A stretch of DNA of 34,326 bases from Desulfobacterales bacterium (GTDB lineage Bacteria; Desulfobacterota; Desulfobacteria; Desulfobacterales; ETH-SRB1). The translations under genes and the position numbers were made by a program. The stretch is taken from assembly GCA_030610995.1 (NCBI GenBank), contig JAUWQO010000018.1, forward strand, positions 1 to 34,326, in the 5' to 3' direction. The notes below the pieces were generated by a model. The model was not told the DNA's origin, searched no databases, and saw only the letters and a program-made list of their open reading frames with translations. Shown piece after piece: positions 1,911 through 8,978 of this stretch. Each line of letters begins with the position of its first letter. Positions within the stretch are counted from its first letter, which is position 1.

Positions 1911-3183
1911 GTCTGTTCTCTTGCTGGAGCAGGGGAAGGACCTGAACCAGCGCAGCCGCAAGAACGCTGAAGACATGCTCTGCGGTTGGGGCGGAGCCGG
2001 CGCGTACAGCGACGGCAAGTTGACGCTTTCCCCAGACGTAGGCGGATTCCTGGGGGAATTCATTGACCAAGAGTCTCTTCACCGGCTTCTCAGCAAGGCT
2101 GATGGAATTTATGTCGCTCATGGAGCGCCGGGCCATGTCTATGGTGAGATGTCTCCAGAATTGGAAGCTTTTGCCCGCCGTGCCCGCGTTGCCGAGCTTG
2201 AGTTGATCCCCACGCGTATCAGACACATCGGAACCGAAAACTGCCGGGTTGTCCTGGACCGTCTGAGACACTCCCTTGCGGGTCTAGTCGAAGTGCGCAC
2301 CGGTTGCCGGGTCCAAAACCTTTTGTCAGAAAATGGCAAGGCTCGCGGGGTGAGACTGGCCGACGGGCAGACCATTACCAGTCAGTTTGTTGTGGCCGCT
2401 CCAGGCCGATCAGGGGCAAGCTGGATGAAGAAGACGGTGGAGTCCCTGGGTCTTAAAACCAAGTCCAATCCCGTGGATATCGGCGTCCGTGTTGAACTGC
2501 CGGCCGTTGTACTCAGGGAAATGACGGATATCAGCTTTGAAGCGAAACTCATACACTACTCCAAGACATTCGACGACAAGGTGCGCACTTTCTGCATGAA
2601 TCCCTATGGAGAGGTCGTCGCGGAAGAGTCCGCCGGAATCACCACCGTGAACGGTCACAGCTATGCCAAAGAAAGGAGCGAGAACACCAACTTTGCAGTC
2701 TTGGTGAGTAGCGCGTTCACTGAGCCGTTTGACGATCCCATTGCCTACGGGCTTTACATTGCGAGGCTGGCGAATCTTCTCGGCGGAGGCGCGATCGTTC
2801 AGAGGCTGTGCGATTTGCTGGCAGGTCGACGCAGTACGAAGGCACGTCTTGACCGTTGTCTTACCAGGCCAACTCTCGCCAAGGCTACACCGGGAGACTT
2901 AAGCTTTGTATTTCCCTACCGGCATCTCGTGACCATTATCGAAATGCTTCAAGCCCTTGATAAATTAGCCCCCGGGGTTTACGGACGTCACACGCTTCTT
3001 TACGGCGTGGAAGTCAAGCTTTACTCCAACCGCCTTGATGTAACGGCGGAAATGCAAACCGAGGTGACCAACCTGTTTGCCATTGGGGATGGGGCTGGTA
3101 TTACGCGTGGCCTGCTTCAGGCCTCAACAAGCGGGATCATTGCCGGCAGAGCTATCGCAGAGCGGCTAAAAGGTAGAGAATAA
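1831..3183 (+). CDS. FAD-dependent oxidoreductase (COG2509-type)
   Basis: N-terminal Rossmann motif VIIVGAGPAGIFAALSLAELG, C-terminal LFAIGDGAGITRGLLQASTSGIIAGRAIAERL. ATG at 1831 preferred over the track's TTG at 1813. Confidence 0.85.
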   Translation: MDYKVIIVGAGPAGIFAALSLAELGIESVLLLEQGKDLNQRSRKNAEDMLCGWGGAGAYSDGKLTLSPDVGGFLGEFIDQESLHRLLSKADGIYVAHGAPGHVYGEMSPELEAFARRARVAELELIPTRIRHIGTENCRVVLDRLRHSLAGLVEVRTGCRVQNLLSENGKARGVRLADGQTITSQFVVAAPGRSGASWMKKTVESLGLKTKSNPVDIGVRVELPAVVLREMTDISFEAKLIHYSKTFDDKVRTFCMNPYGEVVAEESAGITTVNGHSYAKERSENTNFAVLVSSAFTEPFDDPIAYGLYIARLANLLGGGAIVQRLCDLLAGRRSTKARLDRCLTRPTLAKATPGDLSFVFPYRHLVTIIEMLQALDKLAPGVYGRHTLLYGVEVKLYSNRLDVTAEMQTEVTNLFAIGDGAGITRGLLQASTSGIIAGRAIAERLKGRE

Positions 3184-3300
3184 ACAGAGCCAGGGGGGTG
3201 CCTTGGGGACGTCCAGTAAATAACTATCTTTTAAGCATGGGAAGAGTGAAGGTTCGGTGTCTTGATTAGCGCATTAGCTGACATCTGGTTACACAGATAC

Positions 3301-3417
3301 ATTGAAAAAACATGTCAAGGAGATGGACAGACAAGTACGCGACAAATCACCGGGGAAGTCACGGGTGAAGTTCAGAAATTCTTAAAAATACTGCATACGC
3401 CTATGAGCTCTTCTTGA
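3301..3417 (+). pseudogene. Remnant of AlbA_2/RecG-like protein C-terminal winged-helix region
   Basis: Frame ...TSTRQITGEVTGEVQKFLKILHTPMSSS*: the (V/I)TGEVTGEV linker plus helix seen near the C-terminus of that family. Confidence 0.45.
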
Positions 3418-3535
3418 TGGGAGTCCATCGGCTCAGGACCATTGGCCGGATGCGATCCAGTTTGTGGGACTTGGTTTGCCGGAGGAAATGGCCGGGACAA
3501 CTGAAATAGAATATAGGGGACATCAACTATTAAAC

Positions 3536-3730
3536 TTAATTCTTGCCTGGGGATATGTTATTCGAATTGCATACCGATAATACCGGAACGCTACGGGCTC
3601 CTCCTGAAATCTCCATCATTTCTTTGAGTGCCTCTTTGTCTGTTGTTACGTCGTAGGCAACAAACTCAACCCCTTTTTGTGAAAGAAACTCTTTCGCTTT
3701 CTTACAATACGGTCAGGTAGGTGTTGTACT
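3536..3730 (-). CDS. Glutaredoxin-like protein with in-frame TGA (possible Sec) at the first redox Cys, or its pseudogene; start unresolved
   Basis: Minus-strand translation STTPT[TGA]PYCKKAKEFLSQKGVEFVAYDVTTDKEALKEMMEISGGARSVPVLSVCNSNNISPGKN*. The TGA (3715-3713) sits where CPYC expects Cys; the frame is open upstream to 3898. Confidence 0.65.
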
Positions 3731-3854
3731 GGCGCGATCACTATAAATAGCATTAATACCAAATAGTTGTCGTAAGTTCTTTTTAAGGGTGCGTGTTTGT
3801 ACTGCTGAAAGGTTCTGGTCTTTAGAGTGAATAAAAATGTGCAGGCACTGTGTT

Positions 3855-6302
3855 CTATTCGACTTTAGCTTTATACAGGAAAAGACTGTTCGATACAACA
3901 GAAATACTGCTTAATGCCATTGCGAGTGCCGCAAGAATGGGATGAAGCTGTCTTAAAAAATCCGGGAAAAAATCAAAAGGCTGCAAAATTCCAGCCGCTA
4001 CAGGAATTAATATGATGTTGTAACCAAACGCCCAGAAAAGATTCTGTTTTACCGTTGTCATGGTTGCCCTGCTTAACCTGATAGCCCTGGATACACCGGT
4101 TAAGCTGCCGCTTGCAAGAATAACATCCGCTGTCTCAATCGCAACATCGGTACCGGTTCCTATTGCAAGACCCACATCTGCCTGGGCAAGTGCCGGCGCA
4201 TCGTTTATCCCGTCTCCAACCATTCCAACTTTCTTTTCCCTGTCCTGAAGCTCTTTAATTTTCGATGATTTTTCTTCAGGGCGAACTTCTGCAAAAATTT
4301 CATCAATATTTACTTCAGAGGCAATGGCTCTTGCAGTCTGTATGTTATCTCCCGTCAGCATTACAACATCAATGTTCTGATCTTGAATATGACCTATTGC
4401 TGTTTTTGATTCCGGCTTTAAGGTATCTGATACGGAAATCAGTCCGCACAGTTCATTTTCCTGTACAACAGCCATAACAGTTTTGCCTTCAGATTGAAGC
4501 TTTCTAATTTTTTCTTGGGCTTTTTCAATGTTTATCCCCATTTCCAAAAACCAGCCGGGTTTTCCAACCATCACAGACTGGCCATTGATTTTTGCCTCAA
4601 CGCCAAGCCCGCCAACTGCCTTGAATTCTTCAGGGTTCAAAAGGTCAACCCTTTTGTTTGCTGCTTCATTAACTATAGACTTTCCAATCGGGTGTTCAGA
4701 GCCTTTTTCAACCGAAGCGCCTAGTTTCAGCAACTGGCTCTCAGTCTCACAGGCTGGATCAAAAGGTATGATATCAACTACTGCCGGCTTTCCCTGTGTT
4801 ATGGTTCCGGTTTTGTCCAGCACAATTGTATCCAGCTTGGTGGCTGTTTCAAGGGCCTCGCTGTTTTTAAACAGGATGCCGTTTTCAGCCCCTTTACCGG
4901 TACCAGCCATTATTGCCGTTGGTGTTGCAAGACCAAGGGCACATGGACATGCAATCACAAGTACGGCCACAAGCCTTATCATTGCAGGGACGAATTCACC
5001 TGATAGAAACCACCACAGGGCAAAGGTTACAATTGCAACAGCAATAACAGATGGAACAAATATCGCCGCCACCCTGTCTGCAATAGCCTGGATCGGGGCC
5101 TTGCTTCCCTGGGCCTCCTGAACCAGCCGAATAATGTGTGCCAGCGCGGTTTCGTTGCCGACACGGGTCGCCCTGAACTTTAACAGACCTTGCCCGTTTA
5201 TCGTACCCCCTACGACTTCATCACCATTGCGCTTATCAACCGGCAAAGGTTCACCGGTGAGCATTGACTCGTCAACAGCAGATTCTCCTTCAAGCACAAT
5301 TCCGTCAACCGGAATCCGTTCACCGGGACGGACAACAACAGTGTCATTCAGACCAACCTCTGTTATCGGTATTTCCTTTTCCTTATCATTTTCAACTATC
5401 GTTGCGGTTTTTGGCCTAAGGCCCATAAGTTTGCGGATTGCGCCGCCGGTTCTGCCTTTTGTGCGCGATTCCAGCATTTTTCCCAGTTTTATAAGGGTAA
5501 TGATTACTGCGGATGTTTCAAAATATACATGTTGTCCTAGAACCGGAAAGATGAGAAGCGCAACAGAATAAAAGTATGCAACAGATGAACCCATTGCAAC
5601 AAGCACATCCATATTCGCACTCTTGTTTTTTAGGCTTTTAAAGCCCCCGACATAATAGTCCCACCCTGTATAGAACTGCACAGGTGTTGCCAATGCCCAG
5701 AAAAACCAGTTGACCCAAGGCGCATGGCTCCACATTCCAATTATACTAAAGTCCCTTCCCATGCTGAAAAGAAAAAGCGGAAGGGCAAACACAACCCCTA
5801 CGGCAAACTTGCGTGTCTGGTCTCTAATTTCAGCATTGCGGGCAATCTGTTCCGCATCTTCATCCGTATGATCATCATCAGGTGGTATTGCATCGTAACC
5901 GGCCTTTTTTATTACTGAAATAATTTCATCAAGACTTGAAACCAAAGGGACATATTCAATTTGAACCCGCTCGGTGGCAAAGTTTACTGAAGCATTAACA
6001 ACTCCCGGAACTTTCTTGTTTAATGCCCTCTCAATATTCATGGCACAGTTCGCGCATGTCATTCCTGTAACCGGCATTTCAACCTTTGCAGTTGCAACGC
6101 CGTAGCCTGAACCCTGGATTTTTTTCACGATATCCCCGATGAAAATCTTCTTGTGATCAAAATCTACCACGGCCTGTTCAGCCGCAAAATTGACGTTTAC
6201 TTCATCAACGCCTTCAAGCTTTTTTAATCCCCTTTCAATATTAAGGGCACAGCTTGCGCATGTCATCCCGGTAACAGGTATTGTTATTTTATTCTCAGCC
6301 AT
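3855..6302 (-). CDS. copA: Copper-translocating P-type ATPase
   Basis: Two HMA domains (GMTCASC, GMTCANC), CPC motif ([17 protein letters not shown]), [23 protein letters not shown]. Confidence 0.95.
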
Positions 6303-6314
6303 TTTATTCCGCCC

Positions 6315-6518
6315 TTATTCTGAAGGATAATTAATCTCTGCCAACTTATCCTTTATCGTTTCCACGGTAGCCGGGTCTTCCCATTCAACTGTTATGTTTT
6401 TGCTTTCCGGGTCACCTTCCACAGTTTTTACTCCTTTCAGTTCGGTCAGTTCGTTTTTTATAGACATAACACAGTGGCCGCATGATATATTAGGTACCGA
6501 AAATATCTGTTTTCCCAT
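6315..6518 (-). CDS. Heavy-metal-associated domain protein (CopZ-like chaperone)
   Basis: MGKQIFSVPNISCGHCVMSIKNELTELKGVKTVEGDPESKNITVEW; ATG at 6518 preceded by AGGAGG, directly upstream of copA. Confidence 0.85.
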   Translation of the reverse strand: MGKQIFSVPNISCGHCVMSIKNELTELKGVKTVEGDPESKNITVEWEDPATVETIKDKLAEINYPSE

Positions 6519-6921
6519 ATCAAACACCTCCTTTTTCTGTCTTGTCACAAACTTGATAACGAAGCCTAAGGTTTATCATTATCAGAAATGTGAAAAATGC
6601 GGAACATCTGTTTGAAAATTATAGCGTATAAAAAACGCCATGCCACGAAAAGTGGGAAAACATATAAAATGCCTGCTGCTTAAATTTAACAGGAAAATAT
6701 ACATGCTTGACAATTAAAACTCAGATGTGTTTTTTACCTAATCGAGGTGTTTTTTAAATTCAAACAAAGTTATACCTCTTTCTAAAATAATTAAAATTGA
6801 AAAAAATTGCAAACAATGAGTAAGTTACTATATGAAGATTTAAGCTGTAAAATCATAGGTGCAGCACGGGAAGGATATAAAAGAACTTGGCCCTGGTTAT
6901 AATGTTGAGAAAGGAAAATGT

Positions 6922-8532: not shown

Positions 8533-8978
8533 TGTTTTTCAATAGAATAAAACCGGCTGTTTCCAAATACTTGCTTATTGCTCTTGCCGGCCTGATGTGG
8601 AGCACAGTGGGTGTGATGCTTTGTCGTATGGCTTATTACTGGCTTAAGGAAATCAACTGGCTCACTGCTCTACCTTTAGAGCTATTTGGGGTTATTTTGT
8701 CTTTGGCAGTATATCGCTTTGGATTTTCAGGGATCGCTCAAAAAAATATTGACCGTATCTGTCTACTCCCTGAAAGAGGATGTATTTTTGCATTTCAGGC
8801 ATGGAAAAGTTATCTTATCATTGCCTGTATGGTTACACTTGGAATCATTTTGCGGCATTCCCCTATTCCCAAGCAATACCTGGCAATTGTCTATACGACT
8901 ATAGGTGGAGCGCTCCTGCTGTCAAGTTTACACTATTACAGAGGGCTCTGGCGGTTGCTGATTCTGAAAAAACCGTGA
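8532..8978 (+). CDS. Small hypothetical membrane protein
   Basis: Overlaps the previous stop (TGATG); several hydrophobic segments (YLLIALAGLMWSTVGVML, ALPLELFGVILSLAVYRF, YLIIACMVTLGIIL, YLAIVYTTIGGALLLSS). Confidence 0.65.
   Translation: MFFNRIKPAVSKYLLIALAGLMWSTVGVMLCRMAYYWLKEINWLTALPLELFGVILSLAVYRFGFSGIAQKNIDRICLLPERGCIFAFQAWKSYLIIACMVTLGIILRHSPIPKQYLAIVYTTIGGALLLSSLHYYRGLWRLLILKKP

Follow-up and report, generated by a model that had tools for sequence, protein, structure and literature searches.

Directly downstream of copA on the minus strand, a 34,326-nucleotide stretch of DNA from a Desulfobacterales bacterium (hereafter, the window) carries what is very probably a selenocysteine (Sec) glutaredoxin pseudogene that was broken recently. 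On this reading, a bacterial selenoprotein gene would have been lost via recombination with mobile-element debris, not through replacement of Sec by Cys, in a genome that kept most of the Sec machinery.

Extent and coding potential of the fragment

The frame reads ...SDRASTTPT-TGA-PYCKKAKEFLSQKGVEFVAYDVTTDKEALKEMMEISGGARSVPVLSVCNSNNISPGKN*, with the TGA at 3715-3713. A first-pass annotation of this DNA had described a glutaredoxin frame running through an in-frame TGA where the first Cys of CPYC would stand, and the sequence was as stated; when the TGA was read as a residue, the fragment matched Pfam Glutaredoxin (PF00462, 1.1e-16) with a match that spanned the TGA. Several NCBIfam glutaredoxin models were also matched (TIGR02196, 5.6e-17). 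The score against the Uxx-star model NF041212 was 60.5 bits, below the curated cut-off of 66, and an intact orthologue (locus L039) scored 77.0 bits, above it. TGA-bearing homologues were 58-79% identical to the fragment (E, 4e-15 to 5e-25). These comparisons indicate that the glutaredoxin similarity is far above chance.

In a codon alignment with 16 orthologues, the window was collinear exactly over the fragment, and identity collapsed on both sides, nucleotide identity being 60-81% in the core and 13-37% in the flanks. Similarity ended immediately before TTPT on the left (3727) and immediately after VCN on the right (3566), and genuine glutaredoxin homology therefore covers only part of the 3536-3898 originally proposed. 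The 5' loss comprises the ribosome binding site (RBS), the start codon, and MxxKVKIY, and the 3' loss comprises ∼24 residues that include the GFD motif. In the intact orthologue, residues 2-78 of 86 aligned with glutaredoxins of solved structure. Judged by the general layout of the glutaredoxin fold, the fragment is predicted to lack the first beta strand as well as the strand and helix at the C terminus.

Apart from the TGA, no stop interrupts the frame between 3910 and a TAA at 3536-3538, and the last upstream stop is a TAA at 3913. A start scan found no in-frame ATG or GTG between that stop and the TGA, in agreement with an earlier caveat. The only standard in-frame start before the TGA, a TTG at 3898, lies inside the 3' end of copA and is without a Shine-Dalgarno sequence; the scan found no RBS before any candidate in-frame start of the fragment. 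With both ends lost, the fragment has neither the start codon and RBS nor the full fold of a complete gene. The supposition that ORF calling had missed a gene was therefore not upheld, because the copy is truncated at both ends, and the suggestion made alongside it, that this may be a decayed gene, proved the better reading.

The DNA of the left flank matched only itself, with no copies in its own genome or in 19 relatives, and its peptide (HIFIHSKDQNLSAVQTRTLKKNLRQLFGINAIYSDRAS) matched no plasmid and, at E below 0.1, no Pfam family. Fusion of the fragment to CopA by readthrough was excluded by a frame offset of 1. Elsewhere in the window, positions 471-1000 carry a BrnT/BrnA-type toxin-antitoxin pair (PF04365, 1.2e-26; PF14384, 3.5e-7).

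Table 1. Features of the window in and around the glutaredoxin fragment
Feature	Positions	Strand	Description
Further dispersed repeat debris	3245..3503	-	Two modules (3356-3503, 3245-3327); 97% identical to G000:C111, several copies of 83-92% in the genome
Dispersed repeat	3509..3580	-	In reverse complement, the leader and initial codons of an IS200/REP-type Y1 transposase, MPRKSRIDAPG...
Right junction microhomology	3566..3577	-	TCGGTATGCAAT, common to the glutaredoxin gene and the transposase leader (TCGGCATGCAAT); from alignment with nine other repeat copies and orthologues
Probable glutaredoxin pseudogene fragment	3566..3727	-	54 codons, TTPT-U-PYC...VPVLSVCN; ancestral gene predicted to be a Sec-glutaredoxin of ∼86 codons
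SECIS-type hairpin, remnant	3679..3697	-	GC-GAAAGA-GUU-UCUUUC-AC; conserved codons, GAG (3689-3691) and CTT (3683-3685)
In-frame TGA	3713..3715	-	First Cys of CPYC; ancestral Sec codon, judged from the codons of homologues
Left flank	3728..3854	-	Between the copA stop and the fragment; unique sequence without a start codon or RBS for the fragment
copA, copper-exporting P1B ATPase	3855..6302	-	Intact, upstream of the fragment; PRK10671, 2.2e-207; TIGR01511, 9e-191
copZ-like copper chaperone	6315..6548	-	Upstream of copA; TIGR00003, 1.6e-12, below its cut-off

The in-frame TGA and the downstream hairpin

A class-level search of 390 genomes detected a close relative in 20, its own genome included, and most of these matches had one internal TGA; further homologues came from scanning a collection that spans 84,980 species. 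The active-site codon was TGA in 20 of 100 homologues, TGC or TGT in the other 80, and no other codon in any, although these homologues are mutually related and the counts represent a consistent pattern rather than independent events. This distribution argues strongly that the TGA is a Sec codon by descent. The Sec-glutaredoxin call of the first-pass annotation thus holds for the ancestry of the TGA but not for a working gene. The annotation had also proposed a search for orthologues with Cys at the TGA position and conserved starts; the former are the 80 with TGC or TGT, and intact homologues begin with ATG, or in two cases with GTG or TTG, usually preceded by a purine-rich RBS, and continue with MxxKVKIYTTPT before U. 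After VCN they read NEVMVGFDxxRLExALxCLxQSSEI, which is absent from the window.

Neutral evolution of this copy and other stops in homologues, both named earlier as evidence that would count against a Sec-glutaredoxin, were not seen: all 100 homologues had TGA or Cys at the active site, and the mean pairwise pN/pS of the fragment versus intact homologues was ∼0.16, compared to 0.18 among the intact homologues themselves. These values indicate that purifying selection acted on the fragment during most of its past. The break of the gene was probably recent, because the substitutions show past purifying selection and no sign of long neutral drift, and with only 54 codons and nearly saturated synonymous sites they yield no date.

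The apical GAG loop proposed for a hairpin downstream of the UGA begins at 3691, 22 nt past the last UGA base, as had been claimed. The codons that frame this loop, GAG at +8 and CTT at +10, were present in the window and invariant in 20/20 TGA forms, all of which have GAG-TTx-CTT in common, whereas they varied among Cys forms (GAT, GAA, GAC, GAG, and others at +8; CTT, TTG, TTA, CTG, CTC, and others at +10). The mean local folding energy was -7.1 kcal/mol for Sec forms versus -2.4 for Cys forms and -4.7 for the window, in which the base of the hairpin is weaker than in most relatives. This pattern of conservation supports the earlier proposal and indicates that the family has a genuine SECIS-type element in this hairpin. 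When the window sequence was folded singly, the result was unremarkable (z, -0.69 and 0.31), and thus the evidence for the hairpin is comparative and does not come from its stability. An Rfam scan of 3150-3950 returned no family at E ≤5, and hence no Rfam support for a SECIS element. The hairpin was not recovered by RNAalifold from the full set of 21 Sec sequences, probably due to register shifts between AAA/TTT and AAG/TTC variants.

One Cys homologue (L022, genome G093) has TGC at the active site and retains the Sec-type codons GCG AAA GAG TTT CTT. It is possible that this gene is a recent Sec-to-Cys conversion, after which retention of GAG-TTT-CTT would be expected.

Loss of both ends of the gene

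Intact TGA homologues mostly adjoin a gene for a glutaredoxin-thioredoxin reductase fusion, which is 59-81% identical across the loci showing it, and in many of them a rubredoxin gene lies just upstream. At locus L039 (2796-6159), genes for rubredoxin, the Sec-glutaredoxin, and the fused reductase form a cluster with copA further downstream, and the first three recur elsewhere. The CopA of that locus is 68% identical to the CopA of the window over the first 248 residues, which were those compared, and P-type ATPases 45-47% identical to it are encoded upstream at three other loci (L021, L023, and L027); copA is plausibly an ancestral neighbour of the gene. No rubredoxin or glutaredoxin-thioredoxin reductase gene of the type seen beside homologues was found next to the fragment in the window. 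The conserved arrangement, together with the codon constraint peculiar to Sec forms, should be useful for annotating intact members.

The ancestral gene would have encoded a protein of ∼86 residues, MxxKVKIYTTPT-U-PYC...GFD..., with the UGA read as Sec by SelB and tRNA-Sec, aided by the hairpin ∼20 nt downstream. As judged from the operon, the protein was probably a thiol-disulfide redox carrier reduced by the neighbouring fused reductase.

Divergence of the C terminus after VPVLSVC had been noted from the start, and here a transposase-leader repeat replaces the 3' end of the gene. The join falls inside a 12-nt microhomology, TCGG(C/T)ATGCAAT. Copies of the repeat elsewhere in the genome are 87-95% identical and lie on many contigs. 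In an intact copy on contig C139 (L126), the repeat forms the leader to a reading frame, MPRKSRIDAPGALHHIIVRGIERR..., that matched Y1_Tnp (PF01797, 9.5e-14). Only the leader repeat is left at the fragment site, without the transposase gene, and the last residues of the frame, SNNISPGKN, are antisense to this leader. Positions 3245-3580 hold three or more distinct dispersed repeat modules, each multicopy in the genome; no internal repeats were found in 3100-3900.

Recombination at the short microhomology probably fused the 3' part of the glutaredoxin gene to leader sequence from the remnant of a Y1 (IS200/REP-type) transposase, with deletion of the codons for the last third of the protein, and a second rearrangement would then have taken away the 5' end. 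The remaining fragment would not be expected to be translated.

The amino acids, the TGA, and the loop codons are all well kept, as they would be in an active gene, and this speaks against a pseudogene. The genome is a draft assembly of 200 contigs (completeness, 93%; contamination, 4.6%), and the organism might have an intact gene if the contig were chimeric at the Y1_Tnp repeat. The remaining codons look selected, and the right junction lies exactly within a many-copy repeat, the kind of sequence at which short-read assemblies fail. However, such a misassembly seems unlikely, because the left end is missing as well, at a point where the unique flank is still joined to copA, and because a junction at a microhomology is what a real deletion typically leaves. 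Furthermore, no second close copy of the fragment and no other C-terminal piece was found in the genome with a query that ended before the missing piece, and a tblastn search of the window for that piece gave chance-level matches only.

There is even less reason to regard the open frame as a functional short selenoprotein or fused domain that starts at the TTG or at a nonstandard ATT and has its UGA read through. For this the genome offers most of the Sec machinery, and the fragment the loop codons, but the lack of an RBS, the position of the TTG within copA, the missing parts of the fold, the tail derived from the transposase leader, and the weakened hairpin base make it highly improbable. 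The same slight probability attaches to translation of the truncated frame from a nonstandard start into a selenopeptide of ∼50-70 residues that, without the glutaredoxin C terminus, retains some selenol function. Least credible of all is that a former Cys glutaredoxin acquired the TGA as an ordinary inactivating stop. One substitution turns TGC into TGA, the copy is dead, and no tRNA-Sec was found in the draft, but the closest homologues have TGA at this position and the same Sec-specific hairpin codons as the window, and their intact ORFs and conserved neighbours contradict their being broken. A recently broken Sec-glutaredoxin pseudogene remains the preferred reading, and a UGA with a SECIS element in a short frame is insufficient to call a working selenoprotein.

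Sec machinery and known Sec-glutaredoxins

The first-pass annotation had suggested checking the genome for selA, selB, selC, and selD. SelA (613 bits), SelB (370 bits), and SelD (377 bits) were all detected above their cut-offs, and the SelD active site is GSGU through a TGA (Sec-type SelD), but tRNA-Sec was not found: no candidate in the draft genome was above the cut-off, and the eight best weaker matches were ordinary tRNAs. Strong tRNA-Sec matches (72-77 bits) were present in 13 of 17 genomes of the family. In a genome of the same genus (G009), tRNA-Sec is located at L143:1501-1598, beside a gene whose counterpart in the genome studied here is on contig C134; it was not in place at the corresponding position (near 8700; L155 around 1500), and BLAST with the G009 tRNA-Sec gave no match in the genome. 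A contig of the sister genome G011 ends 27 bases into tRNA-Sec, which demonstrates that assembly breaks at selC do happen. It is probable that the tRNA-Sec of this genome was unassembled or has moved, and less likely that it has been lost.

Contig C192 carries another Sec glutaredoxin-like gene (L002:1471-1698), with two in-frame TGAs, MADTVLIFGKNT-U-PYT...GRS-U-GV. It is intact, and selA is encoded ∼4 kb away on the same contig. This gene scores above the cut-off for UXX-star family 1 (NF041114); it has UxxT and a second Sec, and at 38% identity it is only distantly related to the fragment.

Two PDB chains annotated as Glutaredoxin 3 (4tr0 and 4tr1), which we take to be the Clostridium oremlandii protein, matched the intact orthologue at 3e-10 to 9e-9. 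Sec-containing glutaredoxins (PF00462, UxxC) are an established selenoprotein family, with examples from Clostridium (Alkaliphilus) oremlandii and Geobacter sulfurreducens (PMC13188914, PMC1794560). The window copy has the same motif at the glutaredoxin active site as these proteins but differs from them as a truncated, probable pseudogene. Uxx-star proteins (NF041212) likewise have Sec at the same position, at the N-terminal end of the glutaredoxin fold, whereas the fragment has both ends missing and is flanked on the right by the leader and first codons of an IS200/REP-associated Y1 transposase (PF01797). These comparisons suggest that the fragment is most likely a decayed member of the already known Sec-glutaredoxin (Uxx-star-type) family.
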